Part shown: piece after piece, positions 3,133-25,505 of the stretch | Position numbering within the stretch: the first letter of the stretch is position 1 | How the letters are laid out: every line of letters begins with the position of its first letter | Virus record (IMG/VR): IMGVR_UViG_3300024252_000016 | Location: 1 to 54,351 of that record | DNA from: a virus | Reading direction: 5' to 3' (one strand) | Length of the DNA: 54,351 bases | Notes under the pieces: generated by a model | Database searches by the model: none | What the model was told of the DNA's origin: nothing | The model's input: the letters and a program-made list of their open reading frames with translations, nothing else | Translations under genes and position numbers: made by a program

Positions 3133-3363
3133 AAAGAAGTAAACCTCATTTAGCACTTAGGCGTGCCTAAATCATCATGGATAAGATGTAAACAATATCT
3201 AATTCTATATACCTAGTAGTAGCCTCTAAAGCTGTGTAGTTATATAGTTTTTTTACCGAAGATAGTACCTAGAAAGTATTGCTTTAACCCCATAAGATAT
3301 AGTAATACTATCCGCTGTATCTTATTTAATCTTGGATAGTAAAAATAATAAACGGAGTTCAAT

Positions 3364-3828
3364 ATGGCTACAAAGCTAATCAACACACAATCACCTCGCA
3401 AGAGCAACACTAACAACACAGACCAAGAATACTATAACCTCTACTATTCTGCTGATGACAACTGTGTATTCACGCCATCAAGTAAAGCTATGGCTGGTGC
3501 ATTAAATGCAGACACTGTATTCAAAATTGTTACTAACCGGCTTACTAACGATGTACTGTTTACAACTACTAAGGCGTATAAGAAAGGCAACAAGACCTTT
3601 ACTAACTTTAACGTTAAAGTAATGCCTACAGCTGGTGAACACAAAGACAAATATGTCTCTGCTGGTTTCATTAACTACTATACTAACTCTCTTACTGAAG
3701 CTTCTTCTGAAGTTGAACGTACTGAAGCTATCAAGCATCTTAGAGAAGAACTATCTACGCTTACACCTGAACAAGTAAGCAAGCACATCACTACTGATGA
3801 CGCTACACAAATAGTATCTGTACTGTAA
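3364..3828 (+). CDS. early hypothetical protein, 154 aa
   Basis: A 154-aa hydrophilic protein, rich in Thr and Asn, with no family I can name. CGGAG is 8 bases before the ATG. It is followed directly by a strong terminator, so it forms its own short transcription unit just upstream of the early RNA polymerase gene. In N4 a small single-strand DNA-binding protein that recruits RNAPII is made from this part of the map. That role is possible here by position only. Confidence 0.75.
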   Translation: MATKLINTQSPRKSNTNNTDQEYYNLYYSADDNCVFTPSSKAMAGALNADTVFKIVTNRLTNDVLFTTTKAYKKGNKTFTNFNVKVMPTAGEHKDKYVSAGFINYYTNSLTEASSEVERTEAIKHLREELSTLTPEQVSKHITTDDATQIVSVL

Positions 3829-6004: not shown

Positions 6005-6019
6005 GTGGACTCCGTCCAC
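6005..6019 (+). promoter_or_regulatory. candidate hairpin promoter, TCC loop
   Basis: GTGGAC-TCC-GTCCAC: 6-bp stem, 3-nt loop. The template strand shows a GGA loop closed by C:G, identical in loop sequence to the published N4 P2 promoter as I remember it. It follows a terminator and precedes the 43-aa gene at 6052. Confidence 0.55.
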
Positions 6020-11316: not shown

Positions 11317-11320
11317 TATA

Positions 11321-11333
11321 GGGACTCCGTCCC
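11321..11333 (+). promoter_or_regulatory. candidate hairpin promoter, TCC loop
   Basis: GGGAC-TCC-GTCCC: 5-bp stem, 3-nt loop, five bases after a stop codon and 12 bases before the next ATG. If N4 spacing holds, the transcript would start about seven bases before the ATG, leaving almost no leader. Confidence 0.5.
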
Positions 11334-11344
11334 TTCTCACGAAT

Positions 11345-17486: not shown

Positions 17487-17678
17487 ATGTCAGAATTAAC
17501 AAAAGAAGAATTATGCACAGCCCTAGCTGAAGACTATGCAGATAGATCTGCTAAAGGTGGTGCAAATTACGATGCGGCTTATACACATTATTTAGCTAGA
17601 TGCTTAGCTCGTAAAACGGTAGACCTAATGAAACAATACAAAGTACAAGGCTTAAACAGCTCTGGCTTTATATTTTAA
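17487..17678 (+). CDS. hypothetical protein, 63 aa
   Basis: A 63-aa helical protein (ALAEDYADRSAKGGANYDAAYTHYL) starting four bases after RusA. It is not recognised. It is the last gene before the large gene-free structured segment. Confidence 0.6.
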   Translation: MSELTKEELCTALAEDYADRSAKGGANYDAAYTHYLARCLARKTVDLMKQYKVQGLNSSGFIF

Positions 17679-18300
17679 ATGGGGTGTGTAGCTAGTAATA
17701 ACTTGGGAGGGTTTAGCTCTCTTGAGGAGAAGAGCACTAGCTACACGAACGCAAGTTTAACAGAATATATAGCATAGATGAGTACATCATCTGATGTGCA
17801 ACGGTTAATCTCCTGCGCAGTGCATAAGAACGGTAACCAGGGCTATCGTATGTACATGTCCTGACCTAATCGTTGACTTGAGTACATCAGGGAGTTAGCA
17901 GCCCTTTTCTAGGGTCTTGTTCCCTAGTTTTTACTGCTAACTTGATTTCGAAGGCACTACTGCTGTCTTATGTACGCGCAGTAAGCACGTAAAGATAGGG
18001 TTACTTATTCCCTACTCCTTATTATTAGCTAGTCCGAGGGTACTAGTGTGTGAAAACCCTCACCATATTTTATCTTTAACTCTAAGGAGTAAAAGGCAAA
18101 GTTGACTAGCTGGACACTAGAGAAAATGTCCCCAAATTAGTACGATAGATTACTTCAGATGTCCCTTCTAAAGGGAGCATGGTCTAACTTGGCATCGTTA
18201 AGATGTCTAACATGGAGGCTGAGATCTTGGCAAACAAAGACACCCAAGCTAATCAAGTTGAGCACTTGTAAAAATGCTCACCTAATTAAATAACGCCTGA
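17679..18300 (+). ncRNA. candidate large structured noncoding RNA
   Basis: This gene-free stretch of about 620 nt is packed with perfect helices. 17686-17696 pairs with 17736-17746 (11 bp). 17784-17789 pairs with 17792-17797. 17893-17901 pairs with 17934-17942 (9 bp) and encloses CTAGGG/CCCTAG (17909-17914, 17922-17927) followed by five T. Others are 17958-17963 with 17978-17983, and 17996-18000 with 18010-18014. A 9-bp long-range helix joins 18013-18021 to 18083-18091 and encloses a possible pseudoknot (18029-18033/18042-18046 and 18036-18041/18056-18061). Further stems are 18112-18116/18127-18131, 18162-18167/18171-18176 and 18259-18264/18275-18280. GAGTACATCA occurs twice, exactly 100 nt apart. 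It recalls large ornate phage RNAs (GOLLD, ROOL), but I see no match to a known class. Confidence 0.6.
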
Positions 18301-18312
18301 GGAGGTAGAGTA

Positions 18313-18486
18313 GTGCAACAACATAAACACGCAAAACTAATTCACCAGTGGGCCGAAGGTTATAAAATTCAGAAGTTAGCAGTACTATGCTGTGATACTA
18401 AAGTGAAACACTGGGAGGACATGGGAGATACTGCACCTATGTGGTTCGAAGAAGATGAATACAGAGTTAAACCACTTGAGAAGTAA
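18313..18486 (+). CDS. YRIKP-type small phage protein, copy 3
   Basis: A 57-aa protein starting with GTG behind an excellent GGAGGTAG site. It has the common phage module HAKLIHQWAEGYKIQ, a Trp pair, and EYRVKPLEK at the end, the same family as the tandem pair at 10.3-10.9 kb but without the coiled-coil tail. The function is unknown. It is the first gene after the structured RNA candidate. Confidence 0.6.
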   Translation: MQQHKHAKLIHQWAEGYKIQKLAVLCCDTKVKHWEDMGDTAPMWFEEDEYRVKPLEK

Positions 18487-18488
18487 AC

Positions 18489-18593
18489 ATGGAAGTTAAC
18501 TTTGGTACGAAAGACAAACCTCATTGGCGATATGTTCAGCATGTCATGAAAGGCTGTAAGCTACCAACAAGGGAAGCTTCTAAAACTAAATAG
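18489..18593 (+). CDS. hypothetical basic protein, 34 aa
   Basis: A 34-aa basic frame with GAGAAG before its ATG, two bases after the previous stop. The TCC-loop hairpin overlaps its stop codon. It is not recognised; translation is plausible but unproven. Confidence 0.4.
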   Translation: MEVNFGTKDKPHWRYVQHVMKGCKLPTREASKTK

Positions 18594-18610
18594 GTTCTCC
18601 GAACCTTTTT
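18592..18610 (+). promoter_or_regulatory. hairpin AGGTTC-TCC-GAACCT with T run
   Basis: A 6-bp stem with TCC loop like the promoter candidates, but here followed at once by five T, so it could also work as an intrinsic terminator. It separates the 34-aa gene from the nuclease gene at 18639. Confidence 0.45.
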
Positions 18611-18638
18611 GCAACAATTTGAACTGAGGAAAAATTTA

Positions 18639-19619
18639 ATGAGCTTTAAATATACAAACAACAGTAATGTTAGTTTGCCACTAGCTGTGTGGCTAATGTA
18701 CGATGACTATGACTACGATGGAAGGACTAATGTAATTAGTGCCACATCTCTGCTAAAACCAACTAGAGCTCTTGTACTTAAAGCACAAAGCGGAGATTTA
18801 GAAAGTGAAGTAGACCTCGCAGACTTAGTAGCTGCCAGAATGGGATCAGCTATACACGCTAGTGCAGAGAATGCATGGCTAGAACGTGGAAACGTATCTA
18901 AAGCTCTGCGCGCTATGCGCATTTCTAATATGGATAAGATATTTATTATCAATCCTGACAGACCTGTTAAGGACTCAGAGATAGCAGTGTACATAGAACA
19001 ACGTCATGAAACAACAGTAGGTGATTACATCATCTCTGGAAAGTATGACCTTGTATTAGATGGAACTATCTCAGATTATAAAAGTACATCTGTATGGACA
19101 TACATCTATGACTCTAACGCTTTAAAATACACCCAACAGGGAAGTATCTATAAGTGGTTAGCACCTGACAGAATTACAGAAAATACAATCGATATTCAAT
19201 TTATATTCACAGACTGGTCGGGTGCACAAGCTAGACGTGACCCTCAGTACCCACAATCGAGAGTAATCACTAAGTCTTATCCTTTATGGCCAGTAGAACA
19301 GACAGATCACTACATTAAAACTAAATTAAAGGACATCAATAGTCTTTTAGATAAGTCTCAAGAGGAATTGCCTCTATGCACTTCCGAAGAGTTATGGGAG
19401 TCTCAAACTAAATACAAGTATTTCAAAAAACCTAGTGCTATTAGAGCAACTAAGAATTTTGATAGTCTAGAAGAAGCTAATAGACGATTAGCTGATGATG
19501 GAATGGTAGGAGTAATTAAAACAGTACGCGGCGAAGCTAAAGCTTGCCGCTACTGTGAGGTTGCTGGAATATGTAAACAAGCCCAGATGCTGGAAGCATC
19601 TGGACGATTAACGTTATAA
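18639..19619 (+). CDS. RecB/Cas4-like PD-(D/E)XK nuclease (N4 gp42-like)
   Basis: A 326-aa nuclease of the PD-(D/E)XK group. GSAIHASAENAW gives the upstream His motif (near residue 73), GKYDLVLDG with SDYKS gives the catalytic Asp and DxK (about residues 137-149), and the C-terminal CRYCEVAGIC cluster resembles the Cys cluster of Cas4-like enzymes. Position between DNA polymerase and primase matches the N4 gp42 gene. It probably processes DNA ends in replication or recombination, or degrades host DNA. ATG 18639 is chosen for GAGG upstream. Confidence 0.8.
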   Translation: MSFKYTNNSNVSLPLAVWLMYDDYDYDGRTNVISATSLLKPTRALVLKAQSGDLESEVDLADLVAARMGSAIHASAENAWLERGNVSKALRAMRISNMDKIFIINPDRPVKDSEIAVYIEQRHETTVGDYIISGKYDLVLDGTISDYKSTSVWTYIYDSNALKYTQQGSIYKWLAPDRITENTIDIQFIFTDWSGAQARRDPQYPQSRVITKSYPLWPVEQTDHYIKTKLKDINSLLDKSQEELPLCTSEELWESQTKYKYFKKPSAIRATKNFDSLEEANRRLADDGMVGVIKTVRGEAKACRYCEVAGICKQAQMLEASGRLTL

Positions 19620-23028: not shown

Positions 23029-23166
23029 AGGGGTGTAGGTGTTTCTGCGTTGCGCACGGTTTAACCTTTAGCGGGGGGGCTATAAACTAAACCAATTGCC
23101 GAGTCATTTTTCGGTAGCTTTTACGACTCTATAACTAAAAGCTACCACCTAATTTATGGAGGAGAT
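23029..23166 (+). promoter_or_regulatory. structured leader with alternative hairpins
   Basis: GGTAGCTTTT (23113-23122) pairs perfectly with AAAAGCTACC (23137-23146), ten bases before the GGAGGAG site of the next gene. An upstream CCGA (23099-23102) can instead pair with TCGG (23111-23114), which shares two G with the long stem, so the two hairpins exclude each other. A run of seven G lies near 23072. It may be a regulatory leader. Confidence 0.4.
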
Positions 23167-24685: not shown

Positions 24686-24700
24686 GGGTACTCCGTACCC
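24686..24700 (+). promoter_or_regulatory. candidate hairpin promoter, TCC loop
   Basis: GGGTAC-TCC-GTACCC: 6-bp stem, with one more G-T pair outside. It stands 77 bases before the SSB start and 16 bases after a stop codon. It could give the abundant SSB its own transcript. Confidence 0.5.
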
Positions 24701-24776
24701 TATCCCAGAGTATTTACATTTATACGTTGTCGTGTAACTGACTCTTTAAATTAAAAGACAACATGAGGTAATTAAA

Positions 24777-25505
24777 ATGCTAGATTTAACATTAGACAAA
24801 GACGTAATTGAAGACAAAGAAACCATAGGCGGTGGTGGTAATAGCCGTATTTGGGAATCAGGTGTGTATGACACTATTATCGAAATGGTAACTATCGAAG
24901 AATCATCAGGTGGTGCTACTGCTGTAAATGTCACACTTAAGAGTACTGACAAAGATTCTAAAGTATTTCCTATCAGAGATACTTTCTGGATTACTAGCGG
25001 TAAAGCTAAAGGCCAGAAAACATTCTACGTAGACAAAGCAGGTAAGAAACATCCATTACCAGGCTATACGTCTGCTAATCGTTTATGTATTGCTACTGAA
25101 GGTAAGCCTCTTACTGAAGTAGTGCCTACTGGTGAGAAGAAAACAATTAATGCCTACTCATGGGAAGCTAAAAAAGAAATTCCTGTTGAGAAGTACGTAT
25201 TAACTAGTTTAATTGGGAAGCCTGTACAGATTGCAGTACAGTTATTTAAACGTAACAAACAGAAGCCTAACGCTTCTGGAGTATATGAAGATACTGCTGA
25301 AGTATTCGAATCAAATGAAATCCGTTACTTCGCGAATGCTGAAACTAAGCTGTCTGTCGGTGAAATGGCGGACGGTGTAGCTGAAGCTACATTTATGAAT
25401 GAGTGGGACGCTAAAAACAAAGGTACCACTATTGATAAAACTAATAAGAATCTTCAACCTGCTGCTACAGCTGTAACTTCTGCTAAAGCATCTGTGTTTG
25501 CATAA
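24777..25505 (+). CDS. single-stranded DNA-binding protein (N4 gp45-like)
   Basis: A 242-aa protein that fits the phage single-stranded DNA-binding class: an acidic start, GGGGNSRIWESGVYD, a central beta-rich OB-like part with conserved aromatics, and an acidic-to-flexible C-terminal part. Position at the end of the replication genes matches N4 gp45. In N4 the SSB both coats DNA and activates host RNA polymerase at late promoters, so it may link replication to the leftward late genes here. GAGG precedes the ATG, and a hairpin promoter candidate lies upstream. Confidence 0.7.
   Translation: MLDLTLDKDVIEDKETIGGGGNSRIWESGVYDTIIEMVTIEESSGGATAVNVTLKSTDKDSKVFPIRDTFWITSGKAKGQKTFYVDKAGKKHPLPGYTSANRLCIATEGKPLTEVVPTGEKKTINAYSWEAKKEIPVEKYVLTSLIGKPVQIAVQLFKRNKQKPNASGVYEDTAEVFESNEIRYFANAETKLSVGEMADGVAEATFMNEWDAKNKGTTIDKTNKNLQPAATAVTSAKASVFA

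Follow-up and report, generated by a model that had tools for sequence, protein, structure and literature searches.

A modular array of conserved pseudoknots in a gene-free region of an N4-like phage, possibly acting as an mRNA leader

The region between two genes of an N4-like phage is predicted to specify a structured, evolutionarily conserved RNA on the plus strand, with up to five small pseudoknots, as judged from comparison of homologous sequences in two unrelated groups of marine phages. It does not amount to one fixed large RNA but to an array of RNA modules that assort independently, being permuted, lost, or found alone in other phages. According to the reading that we favour with middling confidence, the array may form a structured cis-acting mRNA leader controlling the small downstream gene. 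Covarying multi-pseudoknot phage RNAs are few and poorly understood, and this one lies outside Rfam and bears compensatory changes.

The gene-free region and its parts

The window, i.e., the whole 54,351-nt stretch analysed, is an IMG/VR entry for an N4-like (Schitoviridae) phage with 37% GC, whose DNA polymerase, exonuclease, primase, and portal proteins all match Schitoviridae; two of its proteins, when compared with the best named relatives, were 45–56% identical to them. An earlier note on this DNA had described more than 600 nt without a gene, and such a gap is indeed present: the 634 nt at 17679–18312, between the orf63 stop (phrog_28972, 17678) and the orf57 GTG (phrog_34112, 18313), hold just tiny ORFs (≤44 aa), none of which is kept in the homologous gaps read. 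A coding reading, based on an ORF beginning TTGACTAGC... after AAGGAG, was rejected since the frames are not conserved between relatives. The parts of the region are as follows.

17679–18312, plus strand: whole untranslated structured region, with homologous gaps in L009, L083, L084, L085, and L090/L124
17685–17747, plus strand: E1, long 5′ hairpin; outer stem 17685–17696/17736–17747, conserved inner CTTGGGAGGGTTT...CTTGAGGAG
17782–17855, plus strand: P2, long-range stem read from sequence; GTACAT 17782–17787/ATGTAC 17850–17855
17830–17863, plus strand: PK3, H-type pseudoknot from the unbiased scan; ACGGTA-AC-CAGGGC-TATCGT-ATGTACAT-GTCCTG
17892–17943, plus strand: 10-bp hairpin GAGTTAGCAG/CTGCTAACTT; inner CTAGGG/CCCTAG, T-run
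17951–17983, plus strand: PK3b, H-type pseudoknot from the unbiased scan; AAGGCA-C-TACTGC-TGTCTT-ATGTACGC-GCAGTA
17996–18014, plus strand: H5, hairpin directly 5′ of PK5a; TAGGG/CCCTA
18029–18061, plus strand: PK5a, H-type pseudoknot; CTAGT-CC-GAGGGT-ACTAG-TGTGTGAAA-ACCCTC; covariance model (CM) R2, 71.6 bits
18074–18095, plus strand: H4, hairpin CTTTAACTC-TAAG-GAGTAAAAG with invariant AGGAG, then conserved GCAAAGTTGAC
18106–18131, plus strand: PK4, H-type pseudoknot; stem 1 CTAG/CTAG, stem 2 GGACA/TGTCC; CM R1 match at 18071–18136, 77.3 bits
18254–18280, plus strand: PK5b, H-type pseudoknot; CAAG-TT-GAGCA-CTTG-TAAAAA-TGCTC, then ACCTAATTAAA; ends 33 nt before the orf57 start; also in L085
18313–18486, plus strand: orf57, first gene after the putative leader; GTG start, phrog_34112

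The order of modules in the window is thus E1, P2/PK3, hairpin, PK3b, H5-PK5a, H4-PK4, and PK5b. An unbiased scan of the gene-free region found four H-type pseudoknots scoring at least 27 on the plus strand (17830–17863, 17951–17983, 18029–18061, and 18254–18280), while dinucleotide shuffles gave 0.15 on average and reached four in 0 of 200 cases; the minus strand yielded no H-type pseudoknot in the same scan. PK4 (18106–18131) was found by homology, as its 4-bp first stem falls under the limit of the scan. The helices drawn earlier are also there, and helices of at least 8 bp number 20 in the region against 4–17 in 20 shuffles. The folding energy of the region (z = −3.7 to −4.05) is by itself no evidence, because other stretches of the same phage go down to −4.14.

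The earlier note had also pointed to a 9-bp long-range helix around a possible pseudoknot. This helix, TACTCCTTA (18013–18021) with TAAGGAGTA (18083–18091), does exist in the window and encloses PK5a, but it is not conserved: in relatives, the order of the modules is reversed and the helix is reduced to AGGAG/CUCCU complementarity without covariation.

In the middle of the region, the 10-bp hairpin has no counterpart and PK3b no homologue seen in relatives. The 3′ arm of P2 overlaps loop 3 of PK3, and the P2 stem is replaced by ATGCAT/ATGCAT in L083 and ATACGC/GCGTAT in L090, a set of three types only and statistically weak. PK3, as read from sequence, keeps its geometry and stem 1 in the same two relatives with another complementary stem 2 (CTTCT/AGAAG in L083, GGTTGC/GTAACC in L090).

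Distribution and covariation of the modules

Homologues fall into two groups. Group A comprises the schitoviruses L009, L083, L084, L085, and L090/L124, where the RNA occupies the gap downstream of orf63. Group B comprises L121/L123/L126, L122, L136/L141/L142, and L138, and is assigned to an unrelated lineage because its flanking genes differ from those of group A and the terminase of L123 is nearest to HTVC023P-like marine phages; primase and amidoligase are also encoded there. Both orf63 and E1 are missing from group B. The H4-linker-PK4 sequence is nevertheless common to the two lineages, while the downstream genes differ, and the presence of the RNA in both implies selection for a shared target.

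In relatives, the order is E1, an optional middle part, H4-PK4, H5, and PK5. The earlier likening to a single large ornate RNA of the GOLLD or ROOL type is not supported, given that the homologous regions in relatives measure 256–491 nt (256–634 nt overall with the window), their order differs, and PK5 and E1 occur alone. The 42-aa gene of L147 (phage of L018) has H5-PK5 by itself in its leader; E1 is found after orf63 in every group A phage, and seven further phages have an E1-like hairpin in this position without other modules.

The loci of this E1-like hairpin are L092, L093, L098, L099, L105, L112, and L113; in L092, the gene that comes after it codes for a ribbon-helix-helix protein. Two recombination mosaics were met among the neighbouring loci. 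L012 (1–185) matches the final 185 nt of the query, from the RNA 3′ end into orf57, at 100% identity, despite an exonuclease only 73% identical to that of the window; in L085 (10223–10615), RusA is 96% identical and the upstream orf64 54%.

The earlier note had proposed looking for covariation among homologous intergenic regions, and compensatory changes were found in PK4, PK5, H5, and E1. There are 11 distinct core sequences, many loci being contig fragments. In PK4 stem 2 (columns 45–49/61–65 of MAFFT alignment A2, 11 sequences), all five pairs show two-sided changes, 100% of cells are paired, and six types of the stem exist across phages. For stem 1 of PK4, most of group A has CTAG/CTAG, whereas L124 and group B have CGG/CCG. 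H4 together with PK4 stem 2 reached a covariation score of 0.47 vs. 0.18 when shuffled and at most 0.11 when slid. For PK5 (alignment A4), 94.8% of cells are paired and two-sided changes occur in 6 of 11 pairs (0/500 shuffles), against at most 52% of cells in slid controls. The PK5 layout recurs with other sequences, placed by eye, in L136 (CGCG/CGCG with TGCCCC/GGGGCA), L138 (GCG/CGC with GCCTCT/AGAGGC), and PK5b, the second PK5 of the window (CAAG/CTTG with GAGCA/TGCTC). An anchored test gave chance rates of 0.2–17% per sequence, mostly 1–6%; one of the seven PK4 sequences (L124) misses its strict loop limit, with a loop 2 of 3 nt.

The H5 site carries a differing yet complementary hairpin in L009, L083, L124, L121, L122, L136, and L138. 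When the arms of H5 were exchanged between phages, pairing fell from 1.00 to 0.45, and for E1 from 0.98 to 0.40; in both tests, the strands were chosen by eye, which makes the permutation counts optimistic. The hairpin H4 carries the nearly invariant ACUCUNAGGAG; GCAAAGUUGAC comes next, ahead of PK4.

The pattern matches L127–L130, L132–L135, L137, L139, and L140 were judged to be due to chance. Blastn of the region and of the L121 core against 50,697 phage records did not match the RNA, and the core pattern found it in none of 84,980 genomes, giving one chance match in a Runella coding sequence. A search with CM R1 of four named phages related to group B through their terminase (MW574966, OR003939, MN698239, and MN698241) gave no significant match.

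A putative leader and the alternatives

In the favoured reading, the region would be a long untranslated plus-strand mRNA leader, intercistronic in the window phage and composed of exchangeable pseudoknot and hairpin modules. PK5 would be the last module, at a fixed short distance 5′ of a small gene's Shine–Dalgarno sequence and start codon, and a protein or ribosome on PK5 might control translation and/or stability, much as at the T4 gene 32 operator. Across six loci of group A, PK5 stem 2 ends 29–33 nt before the start codon of two unrelated genes (orf57-like and 42-aa), and in five group B loci, 66–76 nt separate the PK5 end from the start of a small membrane-protein gene; that the spacing stays constant although the genes are unrelated points to an effect on translation initiation or the mRNA 5′ region. 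Also in favour of a leader are the compensatory changes in PK4 stem 2 and in both stems of PK5, the enrichment of pseudoknots on the plus strand only, the lone PK5 before the 42-aa gene of L147, the H-type pseudoknots that likewise precede the SSB gene in the window and its close relatives (see below), and a sigma-70-like −10 element 5′ of H4 in group B, although by count this element is no better than chance. A gene-specific switch is unlikely, because the downstream genes of the two groups are not homologous. The invariance of H4, the linker, and PK4 across both lineages makes it likely that their hosts share a specific partner, probably a host factor, which would bind at H4-PK4; as the ligand, either SSB or a host factor may be considered. 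That the region is transcribed as a single RNA, that it acts in cis, and which ligand it binds are what we infer here. Some observations speak against a leader: L090/L124 have no small gene after PK5, over 180 nt separate PK5a and PK4 of the window from the next start codon, and A–C mismatches of E1 in several relatives would be G–U pairs on the minus strand, although the G–U pairs of PK3, PK4, PK5, and H4 are consistent with the plus strand.

The same invariant H4/PK4 sequence may be viewed differently, as the part of a free trans-acting structured RNA, itself the product and processed from an early transcript, that would bind a host protein or the ribosome. We hold this reading to be a lesser possibility. 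It accords with the match of the H4 AGGAG to the anti-Shine–Dalgarno core, with the occurrence of one H4-linker-PK4 sequence in front of different genes in unrelated lineages, with the missing small gene in L124, and with a sigma-70-like −10 element directly 5′ of H4 in group B, the count of which is no better than in shuffles. However, most loci bear no terminator after the RNA, the modules are permuted and PK5 stands alone in a gene leader, and it is the distance from PK5 to the start codon that is constant, not the length of the RNA. Far more doubtful still is the notion of chance hairpins in a spacer, conserved merely owing to recent recombination: the folding z-score is ordinary for this phage and some neighbouring loci (L012, L085) are recent mosaics, but the compensatory changes in PK4, PK5, H5, and E1 contradict it, as do the pseudoknot enrichment (0/200) and the presence of the RNA in an unrelated lineage.

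A third alternative comes from the SSB gene of the same phage. Its leader in the window (gene at 24777) contains an H-type pseudoknot at 24720–24762, and five close relatives (L148, L149, L150, L160, and L161) have covarying counterparts with differing helices; in all six, the distance to the ATG is 13–23 nt. These pseudoknots were equalled by 2 of 30 shuffles in the window and 0 of 30 in each of the five relatives, while the SSB leaders of 16 distant schitoviruses showed no pseudoknot of comparable score. In T4, gp32 nucleates on a pseudoknot, spreads over UUAAA-containing RNA, and blocks its own RBS, the operator consisting of the pseudoknot, UUAAA/UAAA, and the RBS (PMC535899); by analogy, a gp32-like autoregulation is possible in schitoviruses. 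The pseudoknots of our region might then serve as an SSB operator or sink, on which the phage SSB would nucleate and spread into AU-rich RNA, repressing small early genes and ssb itself. We regard this as rather improbable. The T4 layout and the SSB-leader pseudoknots favour it, as does UAAUUAAA after PK5 in most group A loci, a place where no clear UUAAA/UAAA repeats are seen in this AT-rich genome; against it, AU-rich linkers are ordinary at 37% GC, and shared SSB specificity is not expected when group B is an unrelated lineage.

With the T4/RB69 gene 32 operator, the region shares a ~30-nt H-type pseudoknot in an untranslated leader, with AU-rich unpaired RNA and an RBS after it, as well as the setting of phage early/replication genes; a pseudoknot 5′ of the RBS is found both at PK5 of group A and in the SSB leaders of this clade, the latter being close in layout. 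The differences are that the region precedes orf57, not ssb, which has a separate pseudoknot; that up to five pseudoknots stand in tandem; that unpaired sequence is strongly conserved (the H4 loop, GCAAAGUUGAC); and that the RNA also occurs in an unrelated phage lineage. If the leader reading is true, pseudoknot translational operators, best known from T4 gene 32, would recur within one genome and would have arisen outside T4. A bolder, tentative proposal is a new phage RNA class, H4-PK4-H5-PK5, that travels as a cassette among marine phages of unrelated lineages to act on a conserved host target, alongside a wider network of pseudoknot-based translational control in this schitovirus clade that would include T4-independent SSB autoregulation. 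The covariance models and named helices open the way to direct tests.

Known RNA families and other structures in the window

The earlier note had recognised no known class, and the Rfam search that it proposed agreed: nothing reached the gathering threshold, and nothing appeared at E ≤ 5 on 17600–18650, the ROOL and GOLLD covariance models included. ROOL and GOLLD are RNA-only multimeric cages. The region resembles ROOL in being phage-encoded, about 600 nt long in the window phage, and rich in pseudoknots, and GOLLD in being likewise phage-encoded and having marine metagenomic members with a conserved 3′ and a variable 5′ part. It differs from ROOL in its range of 256–634 nt and its permuted modules, some of them alone, and from GOLLD in being shorter and of another architecture. 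Both are often encoded near tRNA islands (PMC12286853), while no tRNAs were found in the window or relatives (ARAGORN, 0 genes). Several H-type pseudoknots within one RNA recall tmRNA, which was rejected since the tRNA-like domain and tag ORF are missing and ARAGORN finds none. A CsrA decoy acting through GGA motifs was dropped, few GGA loops being visible by eye in group B. No description of this RNA turned up in the literature searched.

Four 6-bp hairpins on the plus strand (6005–6019, 11320–11334, 18592–18606, and 24686–24700) have the loop TCC closed by C–G, that is, C-GGA-G on the template, and are candidate N4-type vRNAP early promoters in view of the known loop requirements (PMC4496689). 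In relatives, hairpins of this kind are found before ssb as well. The element GGTTCTCCGAACC was rejected as a general terminator, since a U-run is missing from most copies and the C-GGA-G loop on the template is consistent with N4 vRNAP promoters. Finally, further strong H-type pseudoknots are found in intergenic gaps at 3295–3341 and 23116–23161; they share one geometry (8-bp stem 1, 3-nt loop 1, 8-bp stem 2), and the former ends 22 nt before an ORF at 3364.
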